Of a stretch of DNA of 64,000 nucleotides, positions 11,656 to 34,820 are shown piece after piece. A model generated the notes under the pieces. It was given only the letters and a program-made list of their open reading frames with translations, was not told the DNA's origin and ran no database searches. The first letter of the stretch is position 1. Each line of letters starts with the position of its first letter. The stretch comes from Chloroflexota bacterium (GTDB lineage: Bacteria; Chloroflexota; Anaerolineae; Anaerolineales; DRMV01): NCBI GenBank assembly GCA_011322445.1, contig DRMV01000048.1, positions 1 through 64,000 of the forward strand, written 5' to 3'. Both the position numbers and the translations under genes were made by a program.

Positions 11656-11722
11656 GGGTAAACCGCAGATTTCACAGATTACGCAGAAAAATCTGTGAAA
11701 TCTGCGTAATCTGTGGTTTCCC
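11656..11722. repeat. Self-inverted octamer array (near-perfect hairpin)
   Basis: Left arm GGGTAAACCGCAG... (11656-11687), loop AAAA, right arm ...CTGTGGTTTCCC (11692-11722). Each arm is made of 8-bp units (CCGCAGAT, TTCACAGA, TTACGCAG, and on the right CTGTGAAA, TCTGCGTA, ATCTGTGG). The arms match except where CGT and TGA units are swapped. It lies exactly between the fadA stop codon and the SCP2 gene's ribosome site. Confidence 0.8.
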
Positions 11723-12927
11723 TACTGCAAATTCTCGAACACGCCGGCTGCGCCCATGCCGCCGCCAATGCACATGGTCACGATGCCGAACTGGACATCG
11801 CGGCGCTTCATTTCATAGACCAACTGGGTGGTCAGTTTCGCACCGGTGCAGCCCAGCGGGTGCCCGAGGGCAATCGCGCCGCCGTTCACATTGGTGATTT
11901 CCTCGTTCAAGCCGAGGTTGCGGATGACGGCCAGCGATTGCGAGGCAAAGGCTTCGTTGAGTTCAATCAGGCCAATGTCATCCAACGACAGCCCAGCCAG
12001 ATCCAGCGCCTTGGGCACGGCATACATGGGGCCAACGCCCATGATTTCGGGGTCAACGGCAGCCACGGCGAAGGACACGAAGCGCGCCATCGGCTTCAGG
12101 CCCAGCGCCTCGGCTTTGGCGCGGGACATGATGAGCACCGCGGCCGCGCCGTCGGACATCTGCGAGGAATTGCCCGCGGTGACCGTGCCGCCAATCTTGA
12201 AGGCGGGGCGCAGGCGGGCGAGGGCTTCCATGCTGGTATCGCGGCGGGGGCCTTCGTCGCGCTTGAAGACGAACTTTTTGGTCACCACCTCGCCGTCGTC
12301 GGTGGCCTGCTTGATTTCCACCTCCAGGGGGGTGATTTCCTCGTCGAAACGGCCGGAATCCACCGCCGCGGCAGCGCGCTGGTTGCTGCGCAGGGCAAAG
12401 GCGTCCTGCTCTTCGCGGCTGATGCCAAACTGCTCGGCGACGCGCTCGGCGGTCAGGCCCATGCTGAGATACACGCCCGGCCAGTCGGTCGCCAGTTTGG
12501 GGTTGGGGGCGAACTTGTTACTGGTCATCGGCACCATGGTCATGGATTCGGTGCCGCCGGCGATGGCGATATCCAGTTGACCGGCCATGATGGCGAAGGC
12601 CGCGTGGGCAATGCTCTGCAAGCCCGAAGAGCAGAAGCGGTTGATGGTTTCACCGGGCACGCTGGTGGGCAGGCCGGCGCGCAGCGCAGCAATGCGAGCA
12701 ACATTCATGCCCTGCTCGCCTTCAGGGAAGGCGCAGCCGAAAATCACGTCTTGAATGTCTTCCGGTTTGACAGCCGGGGCGCGGCGCAGCAGTTCCTGAA
12801 TGACCGCGGCGGCCATCTCATCGGGACGCACCGTCACCAGGCTTCCCTTGCGGGCCTTGCCCACCGCCGTGCGGGTCGCGGCGACGATGACGGGTTCGCG
12901 GGTGGGGTCGGAAATGGTGGTTACCAT
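11722..12927 (-). CDS. fadA: Acetyl-CoA C-acyltransferase (3-ketoacyl-CoA thiolase)
   Basis: Cleaves 3-ketoacyl-CoA with CoA in the last step of beta-oxidation. 401 residues, normal length. Nucleophile Cys99 lies in [11 protein letters not shown], general-base His356 in [15 protein letters not shown], and Cys386 in [13 protein letters not shown]. The ATG at 12927 has GAGGAG upstream. It lies downstream of fadN, but the two are separated by a four-helix-bundle gene flanked by octamer arrays. Some thiolases work in the biosynthetic direction; the fad context favours degradation. Confidence 0.93.
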
Positions 12928-12963
12928 GGGTGTACTCCTCAACAAAAGGGGTGGAGGCAAAAG

Positions 12964-13013
12964 AGGTTAGGAGGTTAGGAGGTTAGGAAAGATAGGGAGG
13001 AAGGAAGTTAGGG
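12964..13013. repeat. GGTTAGG octamer array, left side of four-helix-bundle cassette
   Basis: AGGTTAGG occurs three times in tandem (12964-12987), then AAAGATAG, GGAGGAAG and GAAGTTAG continue the 8-bp phase. The stop codon of the four-helix-bundle gene (13008-13010) lies inside the last unit. Confidence 0.85.
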
Positions 13014-13430
13014 TTTTCGGCGGGCTGGGTGGGCATTGATAGAGCGGCTGAGCATGACAATCACTCGTTCGATGATGGGAAGTCGGTGTTCCATGACCTC
13101 ATTGCCCAACAGATGCCGGGCACGGACATACCAGCCTTGCAGTTCTCGTGCTTCTCCAAGGGCGATACGAAGCACTCTCAGGCCATCGGCAGAGCCAATG
13201 CCTCGCCCGTAGGCCTCTTCCACATTGGCACACAGGCTGCCGCTGCTTCGCACCATCTGTCTGGCTACATCCCGTCCCCGCGGGTCTTGCAATAGCTTCT
13301 CGCTGTCGCTCCATACCAGGTCAAACAAATACAACGCCCAGCGATAGTATTGCGTCTGCCACAAAGGGCTGCGTTTGACCGCTCCGGGCACTTGCTGTAA
13401 CCAAACCTCAAAGTCCACCGTGCCGCTCAC
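13008..13430 (-). CDS. Four-helix-bundle protein (S23/Avd-like family)
   Basis: 140-residue, mostly helical protein. Its pattern YRWALYLFDLVWSDSEKLL, then DVARQMVRSSGSLCANVEEAYGR and ALGEARELQGWYVRARHLLG, is the family first seen in 23S rRNA intervening sequences and related to the Avd accessory protein of diversity-generating retroelements. These proteins form pentameric barrels; their cellular role is mostly unknown. No reverse transcriptase or variable repeat is present here. The GTG start has only a weak ribosome site, which lies in the flanking array. It interrupts the fad operon between fadN and fadA, with inverted GGTTAGG octamers on both sides. Confidence 0.85.
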   Translation of the reverse strand: MSGTVDFEVWLQQVPGAVKRSPLWQTQYYRWALYLFDLVWSDSEKLLQDPRGRDVARQMVRSSGSLCANVEEAYGRGIGSADGLRVLRIALGEARELQGWYVRARHLLGNEVMEHRLPIIERVIVMLSRSINAHPARRKP

Positions 13431-13485
13431 ACCTAACCGCCTGACAACCTAACCACCTATCTTCCCTAACACCTCTAATTCCTCA
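13430..13485. repeat. CCTAAC octamer array, right side of four-helix-bundle cassette
   Basis: Seven octamers in phase (CACCTAAC, CGCCTGAC, AACCTAAC, CACCTATC, TTCCCTAA, CACCTCTA, ATTCCTCA). They are the reverse-complement type of the array at 12964-13013. They begin at the start codon of the four-helix-bundle gene and contain the fadN stop codon. Confidence 0.85.
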
Positions 13486-15901
13486 ACGGCTTCCCAGTCC
13501 TCAAAATATGCCACATCCTCTCCTGCGTCTTCTCCTCGCCGCACAGCGAGAGGAAGGCTTCGCGTTCCAGGTCAAGGATGTACTGCTCAGAGACCCACTG
13601 CGGCTTGCTCAGGTCGCCGCCGGTGAGCACGTAGGCCAGTTTGTTGGCAATGTGGGCTTCGTATTCGGTGATGTAGCCGCTTTCGCGCATGGTGTAGATG
13701 CCAACTTGCAGCGCGGCCAGCGTGTCGCGGCCCGCGGCGTACACCTTTTCGGGAATGGGCGGGTGCCAGCCGCTATCGAGCATGTGCAGCACTTCACGCT
13801 TGGCTTCCGCAATCAGGTGGTCGCGGTTCATCACGACCCGGTCGGCAGCGGTCAGGATGCCCCACGCGCGGGCTTCCTCGGCGCTGGTGGCAACCTTCGC
13901 CATGCCGATTTGCTCAAACGCCCGCTGCATGAAAGCCAGCACCTGCGCGTCTTTGGTGCGCATGGGCGGGTTCACAATGCGGCGGATGATTTCCTTGGTG
14001 CCGCCGCCCGCGGGAATCACGCCCGCGCCGACTTCCACCAGGCCGATGTAGAGTTCCGCCGCGGCCACCGCGCGGGAAGCGTGCATGGTGATTTCACAGC
14101 CGCCGCCCAAGGCCAGCCCGGCAGGTGCAGCCACCACCGGCTTGTGGAAATAGCGCATCCGCATGTTGAGGTTCTGGAATGCCTTGATCGACTCGTCCAG
14201 TTGGTCCCACATGCCCTGCTGGGAAGCCAGCACCACGGCGAACAGGTTGGCGCCCGCGCTGAAGTTGTCGGCGTCGCTGCCAATCACGATGCCGTCATAC
14301 TTGCCCTCGTCCACCAAATCCATCGCCTTGTTGAGCATGTTGAAAATGTCTTCGTCCAAGGCGTTCATCTTGGTGTGGAATTCCACGGCAATCACGCCGT
14401 CGCCCAGGTCGACGATGGCCGCGCCGGGGTTCTCGTCCATCACTTTGCCCGCAGCCTTCTCTTCCTTGATAAAAATGTTCTTCGGCGAGCGGCGGATGGG
14501 CTCATAGGTTTTCTTCGCGGGGTTGTAAACGCCCACCTTGCGGCTGCCGTCGTACTGGTAGAAGGTGGCGACGCCGGCTTCCAGCATCTCGTGCACCCAT
14601 TGCGGCGCAGGGAAGCCCTCTTTTGCCATCGCTTCGGTGGTTTCGGCCACGCCCAGCATGTCCCAAATCTCGAAGGGGCCGGCCTGATGAGCAAAACCCC
14701 AGCGCATGGCGTCGTCGATGGGCTTGGGGGTGTCGGCGATTTCGGGAATCACCGACGCGGCGTAGGCAAAGCCCTGATAGAGAATGGCACGCGCCAGTTG
14801 TGCGGCGCGGTCGGTTTCCTTCACCCAGGCCCGCAGGCGCTCGCCCAGGTCTTCAATGTCCTTGATTTTGCCGATGGATTCAAACTTGGGCTTGCTGGGC
14901 GGTTCGTATTCTAAGGTTTCCAGGTTGAGGTGCAGGTAAACCTTCTTGCCGTTTTCCTTGACCCGCTTGTAAAAGCCCTGTTTGGTCTTGTTGCCCAGCC
15001 AGCCGCGCTTGATGAGCTCGGCAATCAGGTTGTTGGCGCGTTCCGAAGCGAGGTATTTCTGCGCCATTGCGTCGTGGGGGATGGCAGCGCGCAGGTTGCG
15101 GCCCACATGATCCCAAACATCGATGCCCACCAGGTCGATCAGGCGGAAAGTGGCGGTCTTGGGGCGGCCCAGCAGCGGGCCGGTGATGGCATCCACTTCT
15201 TCCACGGTGTAGCCGTGTTCCAGCACATAGTCGAGCACGAACGCGCCGCTGCCGAAGGCGATGCGGTTGCCGATGAAGTTGGGGGTGTCTTTGCAGAGCA
15301 CCACGCCCTTGCCCAGGCGGTTTTCGCCGAATTCGCGGATGAATTCCACCACCTCGGGCAGGGTGTCTTCGCCGGGGATGACTTCCAGCAGTTTGAGGTA
15401 GCGGGGCGGGTTGAAGAAGTGGGTGCCCAAAAAGTGCTTGCGGAAGCCTTCGGAGCGCCCGGCGGCAATGTCTTTGATGGGAATGCCGGAGGTGTTGGTG
15501 CTCACGATGGTGTGTTCGGGGCGGATGGCATCAATGCGCTCCATTAGTTGCTGCTTGATGTCCAGCCGCTCGACCACCACCTCGATAATCCAGTCGGAAT
15601 GCTTGACGGCCTCTTCCAGATCGTCTTCCAGGTTGCCGAGGGAAACCAGCGCGGCGTGGTCTTTGGTGAAGAACGACGCCGGTTTGGATTTGAGAGCCCG
15701 CTCGAAGCCCTGCCGCACGATGCGGTTGCGGACTTCGCGGTCTTGCAAAGTGAGGCCTTTCTTTTCTTCGTCGGGGGTCAATTCCCGCGGCACGATATCT
15801 AACAGGGTAACGGGCACACCGGCGTTGGCGAGGTGAGCGGCAATGGCCGCCCCCATCGTCCCCGCGCCGATGACCGTCGCACGGCGGATTTGGTATTTCA
15901 T
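13475..15901 (-). CDS. fadN: FadN-type 3-hydroxyacyl-CoA dehydrogenase / enoyl-CoA hydratase fusion
   Basis: Bifunctional beta-oxidation enzyme of 808 residues. The N-terminal Rossmann domain starts with IGAGTMGAAIAAHLANAG, followed by GTHFFNPPRYLKLLEVI of the dehydrogenase. The C-terminal third is a crotonase domain with NFSAGANLF, GGCEITMHASR and the second catalytic glutamate in GLVEVGAG. Dehydrogenase before hydratase is the FadN order of Bacillus, the reverse of FadB. The ATG at 15901 is preceded by GGAGGTTCTCCT; an in-frame extension upstream only translates the octamer array. Confidence 0.93.
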   Translation of the reverse strand: MKYQIRRATVIGAGTMGAAIAAHLANAGVPVTLLDIVPRELTPDEEKKGLTLQDREVRNRIVRQGFERALKSKPASFFTKDHAALVSLGNLEDDLEEAVKHSDWIIEVVVERLDIKQQLMERIDAIRPEHTIVSTNTSGIPIKDIAAGRSEGFRKHFLGTHFFNPPRYLKLLEVIPGEDTLPEVVEFIREFGENRLGKGVVLCKDTPNFIGNRIAFGSGAFVLDYVLEHGYTVEEVDAITGPLLGRPKTATFRLIDLVGIDVWDHVGRNLRAAIPHDAMAQKYLASERANNLIAELIKRGWLGNKTKQGFYKRVKENGKKVYLHLNLETLEYEPPSKPKFESIGKIKDIEDLGERLRAWVKETDRAAQLARAILYQGFAYAASVIPEIADTPKPIDDAMRWGFAHQAGPFEIWDMLGVAETTEAMAKEGFPAPQWVHEMLEAGVATFYQYDGSRKVGVYNPAKKTYEPIRRSPKNIFIKEEKAAGKVMDENPGAAIVDLGDGVIAVEFHTKMNALDEDIFNMLNKAMDLVDEGKYDGIVIGSDADNFSAGANLFAVVLASQQGMWDQLDESIKAFQNLNMRMRYFHKPVVAAPAGLALGGGCEITMHASRAVAAAELYIGLVEVGAGVIPAGGGTKEIIRRIVNPPMRTKDAQVLAFMQRAFEQIGMAKVATSAEEARAWGILTAADRVVMNRDHLIAEAKREVLHMLDSGWHPPIPEKVYAAGRDTLAALQVGIYTMRESGYITEYEAHIANKLAYVLTGGDLSKPQWVSEQYILDLEREAFLSLCGEEKTQERMWHILRTGKPLRN

Positions 15902-15926
15902 AGGAGAACCTCCTGAAAAAAGGGTA

Positions 15927-15974
15927 GACGCAGAGAAAACAGAGGCGCAGAGGGCACAGAGTAGGGAGGCAGGG
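15927..15974. repeat. GCAGAG octamer array, left side of GxxExxY cassette
   Basis: Six octamers in phase (GACGCAGA, GAAAACAG, AGGCGCAG, AGGGCACA, GAGTAGGG, AGGCAGGG) directly upstream of the fadN ribosome site. They are the reverse complement of the family at 16431-16526. Confidence 0.75.
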
Positions 15975-16008
15975 GCTAATGAGCAGGCGTTGGAGCGGTG
16001 AGGCAGAA

Positions 16009-16431
16009 TCAAGCTCCGTTGTGGGAGAGAATCACGCGACGGATACCGCCATCTTTCAAACGGGCAACGCCAAAGTTGAGAATCAATCCCAATGGGTAAC
16101 CGCCAGCCTGCAAATAGGTTAGCAGTTGGGCAACATGAGCATCAATGATTCGCCTGACAACCTTAAGTTCCACCACAACAGTCTCATCCACCAACAAATC
16201 AATGCTGCCCTTGCCAACTTGAACGCCCTTATACATCACCTGAACAGGAACTTGTCGTTGGAACGGGATGTCTTGTCGTTCCAGCTCTACACCCAGAGCA
16301 TTTTCATACACACGCTCCAATAACCCGGCTCCCAGCGCCTGGTGAACCGCCATTGCCGCTCCAATTATTTTGTAGGTTAACTCGTTCAGCCTCTCAGGGA
16401 GTTCAGGCCAAGATTTCATGCCCGCCACCAT
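16009..16431 (-). CDS. GxxExxY protein, PD-(D/E)XK nuclease-like
   Basis: About 140 residues with the family signature GLLERVY (G36, E39, Y42). A possible PD-(D/E)XK core follows, with D78 in GSIDLLVDE and E88-x-K90 in VVVELKV. Then come HVAQLLTYLQAGGYPLGLILNFGV and a C-terminal RRVIL strand. This family is placed in the nuclease superfamily, but no substrate or role is established. The start could be the ATG at 16431 or the ATG at 16419; GAGGAG is adjacent but badly spaced for both. It interrupts the fad operon between fadE and fadN and is flanked by inverted octamer arrays. Confidence 0.85.
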   Translation of the reverse strand: MVAGMKSWPELPERLNELTYKIIGAAMAVHQALGAGLLERVYENALGVELERQDIPFQRQVPVQVMYKGVQVGKGSIDLLVDETVVVELKVVRRIIDAHVAQLLTYLQAGGYPLGLILNFGVARLKDGGIRRVILSHNGA

Positions 16432-16526
16432 GCTCCTCTGTACCTTCCTCTGCGCCTCTGCGATTCTCTGTGCCTTTGCGTTACCTCTCTGCGTCTCTGT
16501 GATTCTCTGCGCCTCTGCGTTATCTC
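16431..16526. repeat. CTCTGCG octamer array, right side of GxxExxY cassette
   Basis: Twelve consecutive octamers in strict phase over 96 bp (for example CCTCTGCG twice, ATTCTCTG, TGCCTTTG, CTCTGCGT, CTCTGTGA, GCCTCTGC, GTTATCTC). The array begins at the GxxExxY start codon and contains the stop codon of the next acyl-CoA dehydrogenase gene (16520-16522). Confidence 0.9.
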
Positions 16527-17782
16527 AACTGCGACCCGCGGAAGCCCAAAATCTGGCGGGCGACCACCAGGCGGTTGATCTGGCCGGTGCCTTCGAAGAT
16601 GTCGTTGATCTTCGCGTCGCGGAACCACTTTTCCAACAGGAAGTCGCGGCTGTAACCCAGCGGGCCCATCAGTTCTACCGCGCGCTGCGTGATCTTGGTC
16701 ACCACCTCACCGGCTTTGACCTTGCTCATGGACGACACCAGCGCGTTGGGCTGCTGCTGGTCAGCCTGCCACACAGCCTTGAGCACCAACAGCCAGGCTT
16801 CCCGCAGCATGGCTTCCATTTCAATGATTTCGCGCTCAATGTTGGTCATCTTGGAACGCGGCAGGCCGTAGCGAATTTCCACGCCTTCCTTGGCGAGCAT
16901 CTCTTTGAGCAATTCCAGGGTGGCGCGCGCCACGCCCAGCGCGGAGGCCGACACCAGCGGGCGGGTGGCGTTGAACGTGCTCATCGCGCCTTTGAAGCCC
17001 TTGGTGGTCTTGGTGTCTTTGATAACCTCGGGGCTGCCCAAGATATTCTCGTAAGGCACACGCGCGTTCTGCAACACGATGGCGGCAGTATCGCTGACGC
17101 GAATGCCGAGTTTGTGCTCCAGTTTCGTGACCTTCACGCCCGGCGTACCGGCTTCCACCACAAACGAGCGAATGCCCGCGCGGCCTGCGCTCGGGTCAAT
17201 CGTCGCCCATACAACGATGAAGCCCGGCTCCAGTTTCTCGTAATTGGTGATGGATTTGTCGCCGGCGGTCACGAAAATCTTTTCGCCGTTCAGCACCCAC
17301 TCGTTGGTTTCCTTATCCAGCACCGCGGTCGTGCGAATCGCGGCAGTGTCGGAACCGCAGCACGGCTCGGTCATCGCCATGGCGGCAAAAGCGGGCTTGT
17401 CTTTCTTGAAACGGCTGAGGAAACGGCGCTTCTGCTCCGGCGTACCGGCGGCTTCCACCGCGGCCGCGCCCAAACCGCCACCCGGCGTGACCAGGTACAT
17501 ACCGGCATCGCCCCACGAAAGCATTTCAATCATGAAAGCCAGCATCTGATAGCCGATGCGGGGGCGGTCTTTCTTTTCCTTCTTTTCACCGCTGTCGCTG
17601 GGGGCCAGGGAACCCGCACCGCTGGCCTTCATCGCGGTGTGCATGAATTCAATGTAATCCCACGGAATTTCGTGCTCATGCTCGTCGAAATACCGCGACA
17701 CCGAGCGCATCATGTTCTCGGCGACGGTCTGGAGCATGTACTGTTGCTTGGCAATGACTTCGGGCATTTCAAAATCAATCAT
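16520..17782 (-). CDS. fadE: Acyl-CoA dehydrogenase with catalytic glutamate
   Basis: FAD-dependent enzyme of 420 residues introducing the alpha,beta double bond in acyl-CoA and passing electrons to ETF. The three acyl-CoA dehydrogenase domains are visible: MAMTEPCCGSDTAAIRT (FAD/substrate signature), the middle beta-domain with GIRVSDTAAIVLQNARVP, and the C-terminal helical domain ending in DIFEGTGQINRLVVARQIL, where Glu397 is the expected catalytic base. The ATG at 17782 precedes IDFEMPEV. It follows another acyl-CoA dehydrogenase gene across an octamer array. Confidence 0.92.
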   Translation of the reverse strand: MIDFEMPEVIAKQQYMLQTVAENMMRSVSRYFDEHEHEIPWDYIEFMHTAMKASGAGSLAPSDSGEKKEKKDRPRIGYQMLAFMIEMLSWGDAGMYLVTPGGGLGAAAVEAAGTPEQKRRFLSRFKKDKPAFAAMAMTEPCCGSDTAAIRTTAVLDKETNEWVLNGEKIFVTAGDKSITNYEKLEPGFIVVWATIDPSAGRAGIRSFVVEAGTPGVKVTKLEHKLGIRVSDTAAIVLQNARVPYENILGSPEVIKDTKTTKGFKGAMSTFNATRPLVSASALGVARATLELLKEMLAKEGVEIRYGLPRSKMTNIEREIIEMEAMLREAWLLVLKAVWQADQQQPNALVSSMSKVKAGEVVTKITQRAVELMGPLGYSRDFLLEKWFRDAKINDIFEGTGQINRLVVARQILGFRGSQLR

Positions 17783-17807
17783 GGCAAAACCTCCGGGGAG
17801 GGGGAAG

Positions 17808-17943
17808 TGGTTACTTCGTTGCTTCGTTGCTTCGTTGCTTCGTTACCTAGTTACATGGTTGCGGAGCCGTATCCTAACTTCCTATCATCCTAACTTCCCT
17901 AACTTTCCTGCTCCGCAACTCGCAATTCGCCACTCGCAATCTC
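17808..17943. repeat. Compound 136-bp array of 17 octamers
   Basis: The whole gap between the two acyl-CoA dehydrogenase genes is 8-bp phased. First come TCGTTGCT units (three identical), then TCCTAACT-type units, then CGCAACT-type units. GTTGCGGAGC (17858-17867) and GCTCCGCAAC (17910-17919) form a perfect 10-bp inverted repeat around the TCCTAACT block. The array runs to the stop codon of the next gene. Confidence 0.9.
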
Positions 17944-19037
17944 TACACCATCGCGAGACCGGCAAACGTCGCAAAGCCGCGACCGTTGCGCATCCACAAT
18001 TCCACCGGATGCTCACGGATGTAACCATGACCGCCCAGCACCTGCACCGCGCGGTCGGTGACCATCATCGCCATATCGGAAGCCGCCACATGGGCAAGAT
18101 AGGCATGCTTGTAGAGATCATCCTTGCCTTTGTCCAACTTCCACGCGGCTTCCCACACCAGCAGACGGACGCCTTCGATTTCGGTCGCCATCTCGGCCAG
18201 CATGAAGGCAATGGCCTGTTTCTGACCGATCTTCACGCCGAAAGCCTCACGGTCTTTGGCGTAGTCAATGGCGTATTCCAGCGCTGCGCGGGACATACCC
18301 ACCGCGAGTGCGGCATTCGCAACCCACATGGAAGCCTGCAACAGCGCAAAATCGTGGCCTTCCGGCCCGCCCAGGCGGTTTTCTTTGGGAATGCGCACGC
18401 CTTCGAACTTTACACGATAAAGCGGCAGCGCGTGCACGCCCAGCAGTTTGTGCCGCTCGACCACGCTCACCCCCTCAGCACCCTTGGGCACAATAAAGCC
18501 CTGGGTTTTGCCGTCCAGTTTGGCATACACAATCATGCCCTCATAACCCTCGGCAAAAGGCACGTAAACCTTCTCGCCAGTGATGACATACGCGTCCCCG
18601 TCTTCCTCAGCCACAGTCTGCAAATCGTTGGCGTCGAAATCGAACTTCCATTCAATGAGCGCTGAGGTGTAAGGCTTCCACTCAGCCTCGATGACCGGCG
18701 GGATGAGTTCCTGCTTCTGCTCCTCGGAACCCACCATCAAAATCGGCAACACATACAGGCTGGGCGCCATCACGGCCAGGGAAGCCGCCAAGTCGCCCCA
18801 GGCCATCTCTTCCGCCGCCAACACACTGGTTACCGCCGACCGCTCGCCAAACCCGCCGTATTCCTCAGGCACCGAGGCTTGCAGAATGCCGAGTTCCCAA
18901 CCTTTTTCCACCAAATCCATCGAAAGTTGGGCTTCTTCGTCAGCATCCCGCATGGCGGGGCGCAGGTCGTTGGCGGCATACCGCTTGACGGCATCCACCA
19001 ACATGCGTTGTTCTTCAGAAGGCTCAAACGAATACAT
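17943..19037 (-). CDS. Acyl-CoA dehydrogenase-like protein lacking the usual catalytic glutamate
   Basis: 364 residues with the acyl-CoA dehydrogenase fold: N-terminal helices (EEQRMLVDAVKRYA), ASVPEEYGGFGERS, the central beta-domain, and C-terminal AVQVLGGHGYIREHPVELWMR. Where active enzymes have an IYEGT..IQ motif with the catalytic Glu, this one reads NGRGFATFAGLAMV and then stops, about 15 residues short of the family norm. FAD-side residues in the beta-domain also look divergent. It may be the non-catalytic partner of the neighbouring dehydrogenase, as in known heterotetrameric bacterial enzymes. The ATG at 19037 is chosen because of GAGGAG 8 nt upstream. Confidence 0.85.
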   Translation of the reverse strand: MYSFEPSEEQRMLVDAVKRYAANDLRPAMRDADEEAQLSMDLVEKGWELGILQASVPEEYGGFGERSAVTSVLAAEEMAWGDLAASLAVMAPSLYVLPILMVGSEEQKQELIPPVIEAEWKPYTSALIEWKFDFDANDLQTVAEEDGDAYVITGEKVYVPFAEGYEGMIVYAKLDGKTQGFIVPKGAEGVSVVERHKLLGVHALPLYRVKFEGVRIPKENRLGGPEGHDFALLQASMWVANAALAVGMSRAALEYAIDYAKDREAFGVKIGQKQAIAFMLAEMATEIEGVRLLVWEAAWKLDKGKDDLYKHAYLAHVAASDMAMMVTDRAVQVLGGHGYIREHPVELWMRNGRGFATFAGLAMV

Positions 19038-19139
19038 AGGCCACACTCCTCTCGAAAGGTTTGGGATGCCGCCCCAGGCGGGGACAGTGGTGCTGCCCCC
19101 GCCCTGCGGGACACCCCTCCATCCATCCGAAACGGCGTC

Positions 19140-28665: not shown

Positions 28666-28749
28666 ACGATGGGCAGAACAACACCCCGCCCCACTGCCCC
28701 ACACTCCCCCCACAGCAGGGCTGAGCAACTGCAAATTTGGGAAAAGCCC

Positions 28750-28797
28750 CTGACTACCTGACTATCTGACTATCTGACTATCTGACTACCTGACTCC
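28750..28797. repeat. CTGACTAT octamer array
   Basis: Six units in phase: CTGACTAC, CTGACTAT three times, CTGACTAC, CTGACTCC. The array ends 3 bp before the ATG of the methyltransferase gene, leaving it without a ribosome-binding site. The block just before (28681-28712) is a weaker CCCCACTG-type array. Confidence 0.9.
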
Positions 28798-34764: not shown

Positions 34765-34820
34765 AGTTGCGTAGTTGCGTAGTTGCGTAGTCGGGTAGTC
34801 AGATAGTCGGGAAGCCGGGA
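34765..34820. repeat. AGTTGCGT / AGTCGGGT octamer array
   Basis: Seven phased octamers: AGTTGCGT three times, then AGTCGGGT, AGTCAGAT, AGTCGGGA, AGCCGGGA. It fills the gap between wtpA (stop at 34823) and wtpB (ATG at 34756). The AGTC units are the reverse complement of the CTGACTAT array at 28750-28797. Confidence 0.9.

Follow-up and report, generated by a model that had tools for sequence, protein, structure and literature searches.

The window, a stretch of 64,000 nucleotides from a Chloroflexota bacterium, contains a gene for a GxxExxY protein that sits within a run of co-oriented genes. The neighbours, among which is also an SCP2-like protein gene of the same co-oriented run, were named by reading the sequence, and the arms, arrays and palindrome in the following list carry no strand.

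11660..11719, gene-less 60-bp palindrome (AAACCGCAGATTTCACAGATTACGCAGA..TCTGTGAAATCTGCGTAATCTGTGGTTT) in a further junction of this gene run
11722-12927, co-oriented with the GxxExxY gene, thiolase gene
12963..12988, downstream arm of the S23 cassette, GAGGTTAG x3.2 (TRF)
13008..13430, minus strand, S23 / four-helix-bundle protein gene of the neighbouring cassette (TIGR02436, PF05635)
13431..13475, upstream arm of the S23 cassette, CCTAACC-type, mirror image
13475-15901, co-oriented with the GxxExxY gene, FadN-like protein gene
15926..15966, downstream arm of the GxxExxY gene, CGCAGAG-type units spaced 8-9 bp, mirroring the upstream arm
16009..16431, minus strand, GxxExxY protein gene (TIGR04256 / PF13366, PD-(D/E)XK, 140 aa)
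16435..16519, upstream arm relative to the GxxExxY gene, CTCTGCG-type array of eight clear heptamers in four lag-8 pairs
16520-17782, co-oriented with the GxxExxY gene, acyl-CoA dehydrogenase gene
17790..17935, gene-less S23-type arrays of CGAAGCAA, AGTTAGGA and ATTGCGAG types, in the junction upstream of the acyl-CoA dehydrogenase gene
17943-19046, co-oriented with the GxxExxY gene, acyl-CoA dehydrogenase gene

Four successive junctions are thus occupied, by the arrays at 17790-17935, the GxxExxY unit, the S23 unit (12963-13475) and the palindrome at 11660-11719. The upstream arm of the GxxExxY unit begins directly at the stop codon of the upstream neighbour (TTGAGATAA|CGCAGAGG) and, as the earlier note on this DNA had it, abuts the GxxExxY start codon (GTACAGAGGAGC-ATG). 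Lag-8 identity across 16435-16526 is 44/84, against a mean of 27 and a maximum of 41 in 1000 dinucleotide shuffles, and TRF gives this array a super-period of 18/39 bp. Matches to CTCTGCG with at most one mismatch start at 16448, 16456, 16466, 16474, 16487, 16495, 16505 and 16513, and these paired heptamers take the place of the twelve phased octamers described before. In the left array CGCAGAG-like units begin at 15929, 15946 and 15955, with one diverged unit in between, and taken alone the array shows no significant periodicity (lag-8 identity 10/33, p 0.74). The flanks are mirrored as had been proposed, and the regularity ascribed to the left one gives way to an irregular 8-9 bp spacing. 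The ungapped score of the left arm against the reverse complement of the right is 14. Since that score is also reached by shuffles (300 pairs, mean 8, maximum 14) and by 2 of 2000 pairs of the same geometry across the window, the window locus alone is suggestive, and the strong statistics for mirrored arms come from the family survey described below. The S23 cassette 2.5 kb away has its own motif, GGTTAGG/CTAACCTC, which bears out the claim of a different repeat in the same layout. Further gene-less period-8 arrays of S23-like type lie in the window at 28749-28795 and 34765-34799 (CCTGACTA, AGTTGCGT). Between 11000 and 20000 no rRNA or other RNA family was found at gathering score.

The GxxExxY gene exceeds the cut-offs of both family profiles by a wide margin (TIGR04256, E 8e-41, 139 bits vs 35; PF13366, E 4e-40, 137 vs 22). 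Its GxxExxY and PD-(D/E)XK residues are intact, as the earlier note had read them: G34, G36, E39, Y42, D78, E88, K90, Q102 and F120 are invariant across 66 homologues, and Y106 and N119 nearly so. The E, D, E-x-K and Q-x-x-x-Y among these residues make up a RecB-family set. An AlphaFold2 model (pLDDT 91.8) has its closest solved folds in lambda exonuclease, Cas4-like SSO0001, LHK-Exo and MGME1 at modest E-values (Foldseek E only 4e-3), the Cas4 profile match is weak, a sequence search of the PDB found no relative, and PHROGs gave no match. The predicted RecB/Cas4-like fold together with the ExK and QxxxY motifs points to a PD-(D/E)XK nuclease resembling RecB, Cas4 and lambda exonuclease; in the system proposed below it would act on the arms.

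Enrichment of arrays around GxxExxY genes relative to random genes, on which the earlier note had staked its reading beforehand, is pronounced. In a sample of 80 GxxExxY genes drawn from a single-protein scan of GTDB contigs, which spans diverse phyla and takes in Methanothrix and Methanoperedens, 55 reach a mirrored-flank score of at least 12, compared with 4 of 800 random window pairs of equal geometry from the same loci; at a score of at least 14 the counts are 53/80 and 1/800. With Chloroflexota loci added, 114 of 154 GxxExxY loci score at least 11. S23 genes, nearly all from Chloroflexota, share the architecture (score at least 11 at 38/55), with arms unlike those of GxxExxY in motif class and period: S23 prefers a period of 7 (35 flanks, plus 14 at lag 14), whereas GxxExxY flanks have periods of 8, 9 and 10 (40, 37 and 12 flanks). 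Chance or low complexity as the source of the arrays was ruled out by this survey and by the reversed-pattern control given below. A strict scan for mirrored pairs found only three periodic pairs in 400 kb of genome G005 (G denotes genomes and L loci), which reflects both a low density of elements in that stretch and short arms that such a scan overlooks. Carriage by phages was rejected, with no more than two partial matches among 50,697 records. In several places arm and spacer are tandemly amplified (L156 in G072, L010, L012, L033 and L021), the near-identical CACGAAGG blocks at the G072 PDH junction (L156) being an example.

Arm sequence follows the protein. Across 114 armed GxxExxY units, and using only pairs with non-homologous neighbouring genes, protein identity and arm similarity are correlated (Mantel rho 0.51; maximum 0.14 in 300 label permutations), whereas control DNA just outside the arm gives -0.17 with protein identity. 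Because the pairs are phylogenetically non-independent, these permutations test association and not repeated co-evolution. Several clades have recognisable arms (CACAGAG/CACGGAG, CGCAGATTA, CACGAAGGG, CACGAATT, GGATGAACGG). For S23 the co-variation is weak (rho 0.185 vs a null maximum of 0.148). At fadN|thiolase junctions (L007, L178, L180, L184) similar-type S23 genes have arm motifs that differ on both sides, as if both changed together. The co-variation across non-homologous loci speaks against a passenger model in which an unrelated transposase moves the palindromes as a MITE family, while GxxExxY genes that once inserted in the loop travel with them and do nothing to the arms. Also against this model, no other enclosed gene family was seen among 78 periodic mirrored pairs in the 80 loci, of which 37 enclose GxxExxY, 34 are gene-less and 7 are long spans that by eye seem mostly to link separate elements. 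The model draws its support from the many palindromes in G207 and G215 without a matching gene and from the 40 of 154 GxxExxY genes, including a parA-context subgroup, that have no clear arms; on balance we think it rather improbable. In that subgroup (L003, L004 and L350, at G000:C45, G000:C1 and G225:C104) near-duplicate loci have a parA-like neighbour, no arrays and, immediately upstream, another ORF with a weaker likeness to GxxExxY; its members possibly serve a plasmid or integrative element in some other role.

Gene-bearing units occupy a characteristic position. Both neighbours are co-oriented at 82 of the 98 armed GxxExxY genes with neighbours callable by a simple ORF method (background 54%), and the outer arm begins a median of 6 bp past the upstream stop codon and ends a median of 21 bp ahead of the next start. 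This placement lends itself to an RNA-level explanation resembling the 23S rRNA intervening sequences, in which the arms would pair in the polycistronic mRNA, RNase III would cut the stem and the small ORF would be isolated from the operon, with the repeats acting as RNA and the protein as an RNA-binding or processing factor. S23, the other cargo, which in addition resembles the Avd protein of diversity-generating retroelements (PMC10053308), is encoded by rRNA intervening sequences, in which the two ends pair into a 28-bp stem that RNase III cuts (PMC4990558), and the gene-less palindrome at 11660..11719 folds into a strong hairpin (-29.6 kcal/mol, z -8). However, a stem needs no tandem short-unit structure, the arm sequence tracks the protein clade, the RecB-like fold and motifs point to DNA, and gene-less copies are found between convergent and between divergent genes as well (G173). 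We regard an RNA-level element as unlikely.

Comparison of corresponding junctions shows them empty in some genomes and filled by unrelated units in others. The PDH E1|E2 junction holds GxxExxY in G005 and G018, one S23 type in G046 and G064, another in G028 and G055, and gene-less arrays in G072 and G206; it is empty in G157, G162 and G198. The same GxxExxY gene lies at fadE|fadN in the window and in G207, and a disrupted one, 76% identical, in G224. At this site G215 has a different GxxExxY gene with CGCAAAG arms that begin at the corresponding base, and G173 has a gene-less CGCAGATT palindrome. The fadE|fadN sites of G028 and G005 (L181, L182) carry other long inverted repeats (GTAGGGGCACAGCGGG..., GGTTGAGTAG...CGTATCGAAACC), which are more palindrome families. 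At the junction that we named gatA|gatB by our own reading of the neighbours, L002 of the window genome and L347 of G173 are 93% identical with the same arms, and G215 and G207 have a 71%-identical GxxExxY gene with CACAGAA arms, even though the G215 FadN-like protein reaches 96% identity over its matched part; this reflects either replacement or independent occupation. The thiolase|SCP2-like junction contains palindromes in the window and G173 and is empty in G161, and a further junction (SITE2) is filled in G000 (the window genome) and G225, filled otherwise in G207 and G215 and empty in G173. Both families thus use the same junctions, and empty ones exist, as the earlier note had anticipated; its suggestion of one common mechanism gains from the shared sites and architecture and loses from the difference in motif class and period between the two kinds of arm. 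If the arrays were immobile regulatory operators or replication-slippage satellites, bound by the protein to control the operon or repair them, one would not expect junctions that are empty or taken over by unrelated units, nor uniform palindromes dispersed by the hundred. The number of repeat units does differ among congeners at one site and arrays are tandemly amplified in places, as such operators or satellites might be, but we consider this explanation highly improbable.

The palindrome at 11660..11719, about 4 kb from the window GxxExxY unit, belongs to the dispersed CGCAGATT family, in which L002, the other GxxExxY gene of this genome, is the member that bears a gene. A three-unit CAGA pattern has 52 hits in the window genome and none when reversed. 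Hits to CRCAGATKNCRCAGATK, of which one element may yield several, number 467 in G173, 205 in G215, 163 in G207, 75 in G000, 45 in G229, 37 in G225, 12 in G224 and 5 in G223; ten genomes of other genera contain none, and the reversed-pattern control is 0. In 400 kb of G173 we delimited 25 palindromes of 49-66 bp, 24 of them intergenic. Copies of the family have A-rich ends followed by ACC(A/G)CAGAT, mirrored. Palindromes of the window genome that a crude ORF caller had placed inside ORFs were judged an artefact of antisense ORFs, and a codon-usage caller was used on G173 instead. Adjacency to a stop codon is strong for gene-bearing units and is not seen for the gene-less copies of G173, which form clusters. 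At L365-L384 of G173, CAGATT palindromes are often flanked on both sides by a different repeat (ATCCACCGATTGACACAGATTT...), making composite clusters. No target-site duplication was found in 12 copies (shared flank 0.75 vs 1.02 by chance). Copy number follows the matching GxxExxY gene across the family only partly: G207 and G215 have 163-205 CAGATT hits, yet their GxxExxY gene at gatA|gatB has other arms.

Taken together, it seems fairly probable that a GxxExxY gene and its two mirrored arms are one unit of a system like mobile elements, comparable to REPIN/RAYT or to MITEs and their source transposons. Each arm consists of two to four, sometimes more, direct repeats of an 8-10 bp putative recognition unit ending (A)ACC(A/G)C, with the opposite arm as its mirror image, and arms without the gene form compact palindromes of about 60 bp that are spread through intergenic DNA. 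The nuclease would recognise these units, binding probably as a multimer, either along the array or on an extruded hairpin, and cut at or near the ACC/GGT ends, after which host repair or replication would copy the palindrome, occasionally with the gene, to a new site without target duplication. Architecture, association and distribution are what the data show; cutting, copying and insertion are inferred. Insertion just past the stop codon of a co-oriented gene would allow expression by read-through and spare the host operon; either target choice or selection could account for this placement. The account is challenged chiefly by the missing target duplication, by genomes that have many copies but no gene to match, and by the fact that no recent gene-bearing transposition was observed. 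Gene-bearing units are mostly single copies, with no burst of near-identical copies within one genome, and so mobility of the gene is inferred from its distribution. On a tree of 77 GxxExxY proteins 16 phylum labels require 31 changes (minimum 15) and some well supported forks mix phyla, which suggests transfer, within the limits that few columns and binning errors set to the tree.

More tentatively, these units may represent a widespread, undescribed class of miniature mobile elements that colonise operon junctions across many bacterial phyla and in some archaea, with mirrored short-period arrays recognised by a self-encoded GxxExxY RecB-like nuclease (8-10) or four-helix-bundle S23/Avd-like protein (7), and with high-copy gene-less derivatives. 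Such a class would explain the wide distribution of GxxExxY and S23 and many orphan heptamer-to-decamer intergenic repeats. In sum, the earlier reading of the window locus is partly supported, and the observation behind it is real and general. GxxExxY and S23 are among the common hypothetical proteins that have no assigned role, and intergenic repeat arrays like CACAGAGGCACAGAG or CGCAGATTACGCAGATT turn up often and lack an explanation; the link between them provides a testable function for both, puts one more candidate class of nucleases on the short list of systems behind bacterial miniature elements and offers a natural source of protein/recognition-array pairs. No description of this link was found in the open-access literature, most subscription journals lying outside that scope.

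Several known systems share parts of this architecture. The intergenic TAACTGA heptamers of Beggiatoaceae, for which regulation has been proposed, resemble the S23-type arrays as 7-bp direct repeats near stop or start codons, and the parts of that paper covered here contain neither mirrored arms nor a bracketed gene (PMC4679880). The 23S rRNA intervening sequences of Coxiella place a small ORF, S23 as in the neighbouring cassette, between complementary ends (PMC4990558), but lie in a 23S rRNA helix whereas the units here are in operon junctions, where the arrays have a short period and the GxxExxY fold is unrelated. Cas4, lambda exonuclease and MGME1 share the predicted fold and the E..D..ExK..QxxxY residues; GxxExxY proteins are compact (115-140 aa), no conserved iron-sulfur cysteines were seen among the invariant residues, and the locus here is no cas locus. 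MITEs, including the minisatellite-bearing BrickBuilt elements of P. gingivalis (PMC4596501), are short and intergenic with terminal inverted repeats, tens of copies and stem-loop potential, and the palindromes of 49-66 bp, with tens to hundreds of hits, fit this description of short, non-autonomous, multi-copy elements. They depart from it in showing no target-site duplication, in that the repeats themselves form the element ends whereas BrickBuilt has an interior minisatellite, and in that the candidate source gene belongs to a nuclease family not known as a transposase. REPIN/RAYT systems have an HUH Y1 transposase, whereas the protein here is a PD-(D/E)XK RecB/Cas4-like one, the arms are mirrored direct-repeat arrays (8-10 bp period) ending ACC/GGT, and gene-bearing units sit in operon junctions. 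The likeness lies in a single-copy gene flanked by short repeats that are also dispersed as intergenic inverted doublets, in gene types matched to repeat types and in several distinct gene/repeat pairs per genome (PMC3116915), and dispersed palindromic doublets whose ends match the arms of the single-copy gene are present in both G000 and G173.
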